Position numbers and translations under genes: made by a program. From assembly GCA_016872555.1 (NCBI GenBank), contig VGZO01000011.1, forward strand, positions 1 through 64,000: a stretch of DNA of 64,000 nucleotides, written 5' to 3'. The notes beneath the pieces are model-generated. The model was not told where the DNA came from. It worked only from the letters and a program-made list of their open reading frames with translations, and did no database searches. Below are positions 25,948-59,589 of the stretch, piece after piece. Numbering within the stretch: the first letter of the stretch is position 1; each line of letters begins with the position of its first letter. This DNA is from Planctomycetota bacterium. GTDB taxonomy: Bacteria; Planctomycetota; Planctomycetia; Pirellulales; UBA1268.

Positions 25948-25962
25948 TGACCGTCGCTGTCG

Positions 25963-26069
25963 GTGGACGAAGCCGGCCATGGCCTTCGTCCACCCGGGCG
26001 CGCCGGGGAAACGCCGCAGATTTCACCGTCCGCCGGCATCCGCACCCCCCGGCCAACCACCGTGTCCAC
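25963..26069 (+). repeat. 107-bp palindromic element, divergent copy C
   Basis: It begins GTGGACGAAG and ends TGTCCAC, 15 bp after the DUF1553 stop codon. It aligns without gaps to the copy at 54356-54462 (my count: 77 of 107 identical). The first 31 bases form a hairpin with a 10-bp stem; relative to the other copies one A-T pair is replaced by G-C on both sides (positions 7 and 25), a compensated change. Confidence 0.7.
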
Positions 26070-26096
26070 GGCCCTTCCCACCGCGAGCCATCTCCG

Positions 26097-27982: not shown

Positions 27983-27993
27983 TCTAGCTTTCC

Positions 27994-28101
27994 GTGGACA
28001 AAGCCATCCCTGGCCTTTGTCCACTCAGGCGACCGCGGGAAACGCCAAGGGTTTCCCGGGTCGCCGTCGGCCGCATCCCGCGGCCGATCCTCGCTGTCCA
28101 T
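27994..28101 (+). repeat. 107-bp palindromic element, copy A
   Basis: It starts 11 bp after the preceding stop codon with GTGGACAAAG, whose complement CTTTGTCCAC follows 11 nt later (10-bp hairpin). Over its first 96 bases it differs from the copy inside the gene at 53057-56407 at only six positions (94% identity). One extra base near the end makes it 108 bp. Confidence 0.8.
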
Positions 28102-28157
28102 GGACAAAGCCATCTGAGGCCAGTGTCCACTCAGTAGACCGCGGGAAACGCCAAGGG
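28100..28157 (+). repeat. Partial palindromic element, copy A'
   Basis: It repeats the first ~58 bases of copy A directly behind it (ATGGACAAAGCC ... GTGTCCAC ... GCGGGAAACGCCAAGGG), then stops. The hairpin is imperfect here. It lies in the 239-bp gap before the Xaa-Pro aminopeptidase gene. Confidence 0.65.
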
Positions 28158-53056: not shown

Positions 53057-56000
53057 TCACCCGGCCATCAGGTAGGCGATCAGGTCGCGGACCTCGTCGT
53101 CGGTGAGGCCGTCGAGGAGCCCCTCGGGCATCAGCGACACGCCGGCGTCGCGCAGCTCCTCGATCTCGTCGGCCGGCAACGTCTCGCGCCCGGCCGCGGT
53201 GCGGAGGACGACCGCGTCGGCAGTCCGCCGTTCGAGGAGGCCGGCGACGACACGCCCGTCGTCGAGGATGGCTTGACGGAGGCGGTAGTCGGGTGAGACG
53301 ACCGCCGATGGGGTGACGACGTTGGCCAGCAGGTAGTCGAGATCGTGGCGGCCCGCCCCGGTGAGGTCGGGGCCGAGCGCTTCCCCGTCGCCGTGGAGCC
53401 GGTGGCAGGTCGCGCACAGCCGTTCCCACAGCCGCCGCCCCGCAGCGGAGTCGGCGGCGGCCAGCACCGCGGGCGTGAGCCGGGCGCGGCGGGTGTCGAT
53501 CGAGACGCGGCCGCTCGCGGAAGGGCGCGCGGCGACTGCCGCTTCGAGCCGCCGCGCGAGCGCCCCGTCGCGGAGGGCGCGCACCTGGCGGACGACGTCG
53601 GGCCCGACGTCGGCGGCGGCGATCCGCCCCGTCTCCACGGCACTGGCAAGCGCAGCGGCCCACTCGCGCCGTGACACCAGCGCCATCAGGGCGCCAGCGC
53701 GGGTCACGGGGTCGAGCCGGGCATACTCGGCCACGATCCGCTCCGCCCCCGCTGGTTCGCCGGCCACGGCCAGACCGCGGAGGGCCGCCGCCCCGAGCCC
53801 CGGGACCGTGAGCACCGCCGCGCTGGTGGCCGAAAGCCCCGCGCCGCGGCTGTCGGTGAGTGCCGCGAGCGCCGCCGCGCGCCGTGCGGCGGGCAACGAG
53901 TCGTCGAGGACAAGCCGGCCGAGCCGCCCATCGGCGCCGGGCAGGCCGAACAGCGCCTCGAGGGCGGCGACATTCTCGCCGATCGGCACGGCCAGGGGCT
54001 CGTCGGCGTCCGCCGCTGCCGCGACGGCAGCGGCGTGGAAGCGCTCCCACCCCGCCGGCGGGAGGGCGCGGCGCCTCCCCGTCCACCCGGCCCGCAGGCC
54101 GGTAAGGCAATCGTCGATCCCGGCTGGTCCTTCGTCGGCTGCGGCGGCGAGAAGCGCGCTGAGTGTCGCGGCAGCATCGCCGCCGGTCGCCCGGCGGACG
54201 ATGTCGCGGCGCAGCCCAGGCCAATGGGCCCGGTCCGCCCACGGCACCGCGGCGGCCTTCCAGACGGCGACCGCGCCGCCCGGGTCTGCGGGGATCGCGG
54301 GCAGCAATCCGAACCAGACCATCGCCCCGAGATCGTGATGGTCGGCCCCTGGCCCGTGGAAAAAGTGATCGGCCGCTGGATGCGGCCGACGGCGCCCCGG
54401 GAAACCCTCGGCGTTTCCCGCGGTCGCTTGAGTGGACAAAGGCCACGGAGGGCTTTGTCCACCGACAGCCAGCGCCCGCCCGGGAGGCGCGTCGTCTACC
54501 GTGGCCGGGGCGGCTCCGGCGGCCGAGTCTTCGACATGGTCGACCAGCGCCGCCGCCAGCGGCGCCCGGGCACGGGGAGGAAGGCGCTGGAGCACCGTGG
54601 CGAGGGCGAGGCGGACCTCGGGGTCACGTTCGGCCGCGGCGTGATGCACCAGTCGTTCGACCGCCACCGCTGCCGGCGCGGCCGTGCGCGGCGGCTGCTC
54701 ACCGGTCGCGAAGTCGAGCGGCCATGCATCGCTGAGGAGGCGGATCGCCCACACGCGGATCGCCGGCTCGGCATCGTCGAGAAGCGGCAGGAGGCGCCCG
54801 GTGGCAAGCGCGCCTGTCGCCCACAGGCCCCACAGGCCGCGGAGCCGCAGCGTCGTCGTCGCCCCGTCGTCGAGGAGGCGCTCCAGGGCCGCCCGCGCGG
54901 TGGCCGGCAGCGGCCGGTCGGGTGTCGCCGCGCGCCTGTCGGCGAGGAGCCGGAGAGCCATCCGGGCCTGCCAGCGGTCGGCCATGAGGAGGCCGACGAG
55001 ATCGTCGGTCGACAGCGTCGCCAGATCGCGGAGCGGAGCGCGGACGGCGCCGGGGACGGCGAGGCAAAACACCCGGCCGCTGGTGCGGTGGACGCCGGTC
55101 GCCTCGTGGCATTCCCCGGTGTCGCTCCAGTCGAGGATCGCGAGGGCCCGGTGCGGGAGCTCGACGATGTCGATCCCGCGGAAAAACGGATCGCCGAACA
55201 GTGCCAGATCCGCCTCGTGGCGACCGACGATCCCCTGCGGCGTGTGGTCGAGCCGGTCGACGTTGATCCGGCGGCCATGGAGATTGAGCGTCAGGAGCCG
55301 GCCGCGCAGGTCGTCGGGCCAGCCCGGTTCGTCGGGCACCACCACGCAGCCGGCGTGGGCGTGGCCGCCGCCATGGGCATCGGCCCGGCCGTCGCGCGAT
55401 TCGGTCCAGTGGCGCGAGGCGTCGAAGTGCTCGTGGTCGGCGTGCGGCGGGAGCGGGTCGGTCACGAACGGATGCGGCTCGACGGTGTGCGATCGGGCGT
55501 AGTGCGCTCCGGGGAGGAGACGCCACAGGTGGCCGTTGACGGTGTTGACGAAAAACCCCTCGCCACGGTCGTCCCAGTCGTGGCCCCAGGGGTTGGTGGT
55601 GCCGTGGCAGACCGCTTCGAACACCTTCCGCTCCGGATGGTAGCGCCACATTCCACCACGCAGGGGGACACGGGCCGCGGCAGCGACGCCCGGCGGCCCG
55701 ATCGCGCCGGGTGAGCTCGCCCCGCAGCGGCCGTACAGCCAGCCATCGGGCCCCCACGACAAGCCGTTGGCGAACGTGTGGTGGCTGCCCTCCGACACCG
55801 TGAACCCGTCGAGGACGGTTTCGGCCCGGTCGGCGCGGGCGCTGGCGTCCGTGGGGGATGGATCGGCTGGCCAACCGTCGGGAGGCCGGTCGCCGGCGGG
55901 GATGAACAGCAGCCGCGGCGGGCAGAGGAGCCACAGGCCGCCGCGCCCCACGGTGAGGCCCGTCAGGCCGACGAGGCCGTCGACGAGCACGGCGTGGTGT

Positions 56001-56407
56001 TCCGCCACGCCGTCGCCGTCGGCATCCTCGACGAGCGTGACACGGTCCCGCCAGCGCGTGTCGGTCCGCAGCGGCCGTTCGGCGTAGGTCAGGTTCTCGG
56101 CGACCAGCAGCCGCCCGGCCGCATCGACGGTCGCGGCGATCGGGTTGACGATCACCGGCTCACTGGCCAGGAGCGTGATCTCCATCGCGACGCGCGTCGC
56201 GACCGCGGCCCGGGCTGTTTCCGCCGGCAGCGGGTCGCCGGCGCGCTCGCTGTTGATCGTCGCGGCGCCATCCGGCGTGGCTGCGCGCACGGGATCGACC
56301 GTCCCCGGCCGGTGGCCCGATGCCACGCCGCAGGCGAGCAGCACCACGGCGCGGACTGCCGCACGCCGCCGCGCTGCACGCCGTGAAGAAACGTCGAGGA
56401 CGACCAT
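53057..56407 (-). CDS. Exported membrane-bound-dehydrogenase-like cytochrome c protein carrying an in-frame repeat element
   Basis: A 1,116-residue protein: signal region with RRAARRRAAVRAVVLLACGVASG, a dehydrogenase propeller to about residue 470 (TLVEDADGDGVAEH; PPRLLFIPAGD; NGLSWGPDGWLYGRCG; LAILDWSDTGECHE), HEAT-like helices, and a c-type heme site CATCHRLHGDGEALGPDLTG near 998 with LMPEGLLDGLTDDEVRDLIAYL at the end. About residues 649-684 (GGQSPPWPLSTQ and onward) are encoded by a copy of the 107-bp palindromic element; homologous sequence resumes at ADHHDLGAMVWFG. The insert falls between helices and leaves the frame open. ATG 56407 is preceded by a hairpin. Confidence 0.85.
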   Translation of the reverse strand: MVVLDVSSRRAARRRAAVRAVVLLACGVASGHRPGTVDPVRAATPDGAATINSERAGDPLPAETARAAVATRVAMEITLLASEPVIVNPIAATVDAAGRLLVAENLTYAERPLRTDTRWRDRVTLVEDADGDGVAEHHAVLVDGLVGLTGLTVGRGGLWLLCPPRLLFIPAGDRPPDGWPADPSPTDASARADRAETVLDGFTVSEGSHHTFANGLSWGPDGWLYGRCGASSPGAIGPPGVAAAARVPLRGGMWRYHPERKVFEAVCHGTTNPWGHDWDDRGEGFFVNTVNGHLWRLLPGAHYARSHTVEPHPFVTDPLPPHADHEHFDASRHWTESRDGRADAHGGGHAHAGCVVVPDEPGWPDDLRGRLLTLNLHGRRINVDRLDHTPQGIVGRHEADLALFGDPFFRGIDIVELPHRALAILDWSDTGECHEATGVHRTSGRVFCLAVPGAVRAPLRDLATLSTDDLVGLLMADRWQARMALRLLADRRAATPDRPLPATARAALERLLDDGATTTLRLRGLWGLWATGALATGRLLPLLDDAEPAIRVWAIRLLSDAWPLDFATGEQPPRTAAPAAVAVERLVHHAAAERDPEVRLALATVLQRLPPRARAPLAAALVDHVEDSAAGAAPATVDDAPPGRALAVGGQSPPWPLSTQATAGNAEGFPGRRRPHPAADHFFHGPGADHHDLGAMVWFGLLPAIPADPGGAVAVWKAAAVPWADRAHWPGLRRDIVRRATGGDAAATLSALLAAAADEGPAGIDDCLTGLRAGWTGRRRALPPAGWERFHAAAVAAAADADEPLAVPIGENVAALEALFGLPGADGRLGRLVLDDSLPAARRAAALAALTDSRGAGLSATSAAVLTVPGLGAAALRGLAVAGEPAGAERIVAEYARLDPVTRAGALMALVSRREWAAALASAVETGRIAAADVGPDVVRQVRALRDGALARRLEAAVAARPSASGRVSIDTRRARLTPAVLAAADSAAGRRLWERLCATCHRLHGDGEALGPDLTGAGRHDLDYLLANVVTPSAVVSPDYRLRQAILDDGRVVAGLLERRTADAVVLRTAAGRETLPADEIEELRDAGVSLMPEGLLDGLTDDEVRDLIAYLMAG
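54356..54462 (-). repeat. 107-bp palindromic element, copy B, inside a coding sequence
   Basis: Read on the minus strand it starts GTGGACAAAG and ends CTTTTTCCAC, with 10-base ends that are complementary except for one base. It is 94% identical to copy A over 96 bases and keeps the host gene's frame open, coding for about 35 residues that begin within GGQSPPWPLSTQ. The internal hairpin (10-bp stem, 11-nt loop) is intact. Confidence 0.85.
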
Positions 56408-56409
56408 GC

Positions 56410-56451
56410 GGTGGGATCCCGCAGCACGGGATCCCACCGCTCCTGAGCGGC

Positions 56452-56459
<8 letters not shown>
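56410..56459 (-). terminator. Two adjacent perfect hairpins between nrdJ and the downstream gene
   Basis: On the minus strand the first hairpin (56439-56459, 9-bp stem, 3-nt loop) covers the nrdJ stop codon. The second (56410-56438, arms GGTGGGATCCCG and its complement, 5-nt loop) ends 2 bp before the next ATG. There is no T-tract, but the pair would form easily in RNA and would mask the start region of the next gene. Confidence 0.55.

Positions 56460-59589
<3,130 letters not shown>

Follow-up and report, generated by a model that had tools for sequence, protein, structure and literature searches.

The host gene and its insert

The window, the whole stretch of 64,000 nucleotides that was analysed, carries on its minus strand a gene for a PVC-type heme-binding CxxCH protein (53057-56479; 1140 aa, including a 40-residue insert), with a TIGR02604 domain at the N-terminus, a TIGR02603 domain at the C-terminus and a cytochrome c motif. 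Lying in frame within this gene is a copy of a 119-bp element (54352-54468, minus strand), which comprises consensus positions 1-117 at 95.7% identity and lacks the last two consensus bases (TG), so that 117 of the 119 bp are present. The full element, with the consensus CTGTCCGTGGACAAAGCC...CACTTTTTCCACGGGCTG, has imperfect terminal inverted repeats (CTGTCCGTGGACAAAG / CAGCCCGTGGAAAAAG) and contains no transposase gene. At the window copy, the left terminal inverted repeat reads CTGTCGGTGGACAAAG (54453-54468, minus strand), and the right one (54352-54365, minus strand), which reads GCCCGTGGAAAAAG on the plus strand, is two bases short. Of the two copies of the 4-bp target, the left one reads CTGG (54469-54472, minus strand), and its right-hand counterpart is degenerate, reading CAGG at about 54348-54351. 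The simplest explanation for the missing TG and the degenerate right target is that a small deletion occurred later and left the frame intact.

Three hairpins lie between the ends, all on the minus strand: hairpin 1, GTGGACAAAG...CTTTGTCCAC, with a 10-bp stem (54432-54462); hairpin 2, around GGGAAAC...GTTTCCC (54391-54428); and hairpin 3, GGCCGC...GCGGCC followed by TTTTT (54368-54390), which resembles an intrinsic terminator by its pattern. An earlier sequence-only reading of this DNA had placed a palindromic repeat at 54356-54462. The repeat is real, but those bounds are too narrow, and the GTGGA/TCCAC motifs taken for its ends form the base of hairpin 1.

The same reading held that the repeat was inserted in frame and left the host frame open, which is borne out, with 40 extra residues in place of the estimated 35 or so. 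Numbered from the TTG at 56479, these are residues about 671-710, and they sit directly before a conserved DHHDLG motif, where the preceding linker is variable in all ten orthologs that we aligned. In this alignment, the extra residues occur in the window protein and in none of the nine others. When 421 residues of the host protein around the insert were used as a tblastn query against the sister genome and nearest relative, G001, a single in-frame match of 381 residues was obtained in a fragment of the ortholog, exactly 40 aa shorter. A search of 72 genomes likewise leaves residues 675-702 uncovered in orthologs that have separate matches on both sides. The occurrence of the same residues in homologues from distant planctomycetes had been named among the observations that would speak against an insertion; the aligned orthologs are without them, and the claim has survived. 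As one of the tolerated insertions, the window copy occupies a variable interdomain linker.

Copies in the window, the genome and the family

Two related copies listed by the sequence-only reading (27994-28101 and 25963-26069) are real and have been revised in extent. The first is an intergenic copy of 102 bp on the plus strand (27988-28089; consensus positions 1-102) that has lost its right end; CTAG precedes it at 27984-27987, with a TGA stop shortly upstream. In tandem with it is a second, partial copy (28094-28157, plus strand; positions 1-64) that had escaped notice. The other is a degenerate intergenic copy at 75% identity (25957-26071, plus strand; positions 1-115), which starts nine bases past the stop codon of a gene.

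Beyond the window, the element is abundant in its own genome, G000, where blastn with the window copy as query finds at least 49 places, and a covariance model, the type of search that had been proposed for finding further copies, gives at least 130 matches (E up to 0.1, 150 candidates scored), up to 98% identical. These numbers exclude chance as the source of the repeat. The genomes searched are unannotated drafts, at least some of them metagenome-assembled, and copies near contig ends were excluded. With the covariance model at E up to 1e-10, copies are present in 56 of the 72 genomes searched from the same family, representing 11 of its 12 genera, while 15 genomes that belong to the order's other families yield a single marginal match (E 0.008). 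An exact-pattern search of a genome collection recovers the repeat in two planctomycete metagenome-assembled genomes, REEB424 and K_DeepCast_35m, and a search of a plasmid collection and of viral contigs did not find it. One copy from another genus (G060:C94:13638-13756) scores 148.4 bits, equal to the best G000 copies, where copies of that genus are otherwise divergent; it may reflect recent horizontal transfer or assembly contamination.

Target duplication and mobility

Among the 51 copies with both ends, exact 4-bp flank pairs are found in 10, a number reached in none of 5000 permutations (2.5 expected), and 123 flank bases match, against 95 in permutations. The same 51 copies give no duplication signal at 2, 3, 5 or 6 bp. 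The target consensus is C-T-(A/G)-N (CTRN), and in other genera CTAG flanks most copies at both ends. The duplications of many other copies contain mismatches, as does that of the window insertion with its degenerate right-hand target. An empty site is available for the copy at C24:14884, whose G000 flanks overlap by 4 bp in G001, leaving a single TCAG and no element. Three other copies are present at full length in both genomes, and some insertions are therefore older and some newer.

Placement relative to genes and reading frames

The majority of copies are intergenic or located at the ends of genes, probably through the purging of genic insertions. In a census of about 90 G000 copies with usable flanks, made on fetched stretches with a codon model from five seed genes, we resolved three in-frame intragenic cases, all of the 119-bp type and with no frame in common. 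Besides the window copy, these include L002 (G000:C20:73944-74062), where the element runs in the opposite direction to the gene and lengthens an outer-membrane beta-barrel protein by about 41 residues, an insert absent from the orthologs in all three congeneric genomes, and L007 (G000:C40:39371-39489), which lies in frame inside the Pfam domain of a biopterin-dependent aromatic amino acid hydroxylase gene. L007 is flanked by perfect CTAC duplications, and 28 codons downstream of the copy there is a TGA, at a position where we take tryptophan to be expected in this family; the gene is probably a pseudogene or contains an error near the contig end.

An intact insertion adds 119 + 4 = 123 bp, or 41 codons, and therefore does not shift the frame; the length is exactly 119 bp in 29 of 40 full copies in G000 and in 19 of 23 in the G001 sample. 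The consensus is open in all three forward frames and in two of the three reverse frames, as compared with about 68% of frames in random genomic 119-mers, and 56-60 of 69 copies likewise have the three forward frames open. The earlier statement that the same frame is open in all full copies is accordingly true but incidental.

Copies also adjoin stop codons: 22 of 73 (about 30%) begin at most one base away from where a coding ORF has its stop codon. This position comes partly from the choice of CTAG/CTGA targets, and where such a C-TAG or C-TGA target is hit the stop codon stays intact because the 4-bp duplication regenerates CTAG or CTGA. CTAG is very rare (24 sites outside copies in the 406 kb examined), and stop codons account for a quarter of those sites and for a similar share among copies. 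For CTGA, 8.3% of sites are stop codons, whereas six of the nine copies at CTGA abut stops (Fisher p 2.5e-5), an excess that is likely due to the loss of harmful insertions. The orientation of copies at stop codons seems biased at first (16 left versus 6 right), but this bias disappears when copies with both ends are considered alone (5 versus 6).

A probable partner: an IS1182-like element

Related genomes contain IS1182-like elements of about 1.49 kb that encode a DDE transposase with DDE_Tnp_1 and DUF772 domains. The best model for this transposase is NF033551 (IS1182, NCBIfam), which it matches at 193 and 182 bits, below the curated cut-off of 270. Three copies have CTAG on both sides: L177 (1491 bp, with a 453-aa ORF), L172 (1485 bp) and the deleted L168 (1120 bp). 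Their ends match one end or the other of the repeat at 13-16 of 18 positions, and over all IS1182-like copies, the others of which show one such end, the range is 12-16 of 18; at other CTRN sites, 12 or more matches to the right end occur at 0.08%. In G002, a DDE_Tnp_1 gene adjoins CTAG|CAGCCCGTGGCCCAAG. The terminal bases alone are common to the repeat and the IS1182-like element. Since these ends are held in common with CTAG-flanked IS1182-like elements, the best interpretation of the repeat is that it is a MITE belonging to this IS.

The IS1182-like transposase occurs in 13 of the 72 family genomes and has no match in the window's own genome, where an active source is missing, was lost, or lies in unassembled DNA. 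Two internally deleted IS1182-like relics, L155 (G002:C247:4435-4691) and L151 (G008:C245:7188-7777), are possible steps toward short derivatives. IS701 (DDE_5), which has the CTAG target in common with the 119-bp repeat, was considered as a partner and rejected, as it has ends of its own (TAGTACTAC/GTATTACTCCGTTA), and MITE-like ends adjoin its remnants. Two congeneric genomes have one such IS701 remnant, with a MITE-like end next to it, in syntenic position (L111, G000:C25; L108, G003:C190).

Hairpins and a possible RNA role

Folded as single-stranded DNA, the consensus forms the three hairpins at -41 kcal/mol (z -7.1). Over 16 copies from eleven genomes, the stem covariation score is 0.253, against 0.101 for shuffled alignments (0 of 500 as high) and at most 0.117 for slid versions, and the stems contain 43 double-change cells versus 13. 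Related sequences can exceed shuffles in the absence of structure, but the slid controls are also far below the observed score. The hairpins could serve transposition or RNA stability, or could result from repeat-templated repair of palindromes. Comparison with Rfam gave chance-level matches only, and no family.

Origin of the repeat

We hold with high confidence that the repeat is a 119-bp non-autonomous DNA transposon (MITE), very probably moved in trans by an IS1182-like transposase with the same ends. It is short, lacks a transposase gene, has terminal inverted repeats, is spread in multiple copies with 4-bp target duplications, has an empty site, differs in presence and absence between close relatives, and has its ends and the CTAG target in common with copies of an autonomous IS. 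The trans-acting step and its chemistry, which we infer from sequence, would consist of an IS1182-like DDE transposase acting on the 119-bp element, with insertion at CTAG-like tetranucleotides and duplication of 4 bp. Insertion into a gene would usually preserve the frame, adding 123 bp of sequence with few stops, and where the target lies on a C-TAG or C-TGA stop, the duplication would preserve that stop.

Transposition that involves a Y1 tyrosine transposase proceeds through single strands and does not produce a target duplication. A REP-like palindrome, or a TIR-type relative, mobilized by such an enzyme (RAYT/TIRYT) would account for the short palindromes, the tandem copies and the high copy number, and the GTAG/CGTC REPs and other RAYT/TIRYT-associated repeats, likewise abundant short palindromes, are known in planctomycetes (PMC3733652). 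However, PF01797 has no match in the 98% complete genome of the window, while control genomes did give matches, and the absence of a Y1/RAYT transposase there makes a REP unlikely. Together with the clear 4-bp duplication, the empty site and the existence of a DDE IS whose ends are the same, this leaves such an origin extremely improbable. Only slightly less remote is an element like the Rickettsia palindromic elements (RPEs), whose spread would be selected for in-frame genic insertion and which would encode a conserved peptide. The three in-frame copies, in the window gene, the beta-barrel protein and the biopterin hydroxylase, have the appearance of such an element, and the sequence-only reading had implied gene invasion of this kind. 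That implication is not supported by three copies among about 90, in differing frames and both orientations: most copies lie outside genes, the three peptides differ because their frames differ (one being read from the opposite strand) and no peptide is conserved, the consensus is open in every forward frame anyway, and the hydroxylase gene contains a nonsense codon as well as its copy.

That the repeat is a regulatory RNA or terminator at gene ends, selected and kept for its hairpins and not just a mobile parasite, is also unlikely, if less so. The compensatory stem changes across genera, the terminator-like hairpin 3 with its TTTTT, and the 22 of 73 copies that abut stop codons speak for such a role. 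Against it, full copies at stops are unbiased in orientation (5 left, 6 right), conservation of the T-run does not extend to other genera, the position at stop codons arises partly from CTAG/CTGA targeting, no Rfam family corresponds, and copies are polymorphic between sister genomes. Somewhat more doubtful still is the idea that the element has been shaped to spare genes, its length plus duplication being a multiple of three, its sequence poor in stops and its target such that stops are regenerated, with the hairpins kept by compensatory change for transposition or an RNA.

Comparison with known systems

The MITE of the window resembles in its behaviour MITEPsy1 of Pseudomonas syringae, a MITE of about 100 bp with imperfect 18-nt terminal repeats that is attributed to ISPsy2 and that duplicates 4 nt of its CTAG or YTAA target on insertion, its transposition having been demonstrated (PMC3189936). 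The two are alike in their 4-bp CTAG-type duplication, but the ends of the 119-bp repeat differ from those printed for MITEPsy1 (PMC3189936), so they are not the same family; their hosts belong to different phyla. QMITE1 and QMITE2 of Coxiella burnetii lie at gene 3′ ends or between genes, and occasionally in frame within ORFs or where they give a stop (PMC5896051). The 119-bp repeat is alike in its gene-end and intergenic placement with occasional in-frame insertion into ORFs; the QMITEs differ in size and duplications, and no IS1182-like link is described for them (PMC5896051). In-frame fusions by MITEs are described as not unusual, with RPEs as the extreme case; the peptide that RPEs encode is conserved, and almost half of them are located in genes (reviewed in PMC10969869). 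The 119-bp repeat is like RPEs in the in-frame genic insertion of a palindromic repeat, and unlike them in its few genic copies, its target duplication and its IS partner. In the searchable literature, including searches that combined IS1182 with CTAG or MITE, we found no description of this 119-bp MITE family. The repeat seems to represent a MITE family that is undescribed, has been active recently and is shared by most genera in one uncultured planctomycete family, with a probable parent IS identified.

The window gene offers a case of in-frame protein lengthening by a MITE for which the unoccupied gene is available in a close sister genome. A simple rule of tolerance for high copy number is contained in the sum 119 + 4 = 123 and in the regeneration of stops by CTAG/CTGA. 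On the practical side, insertions of about 40 residues could pass for protein features, and the repeat breaks assemblies. Tandem arrays, composed mostly of right-truncated copies with a unit of 102-124 bp, are often located at assembly breaks, as at the G000 contig ends C1:211146-211450, C58:1-233, C52:24376-24686 and C9:1-212, and in C23 and C70.
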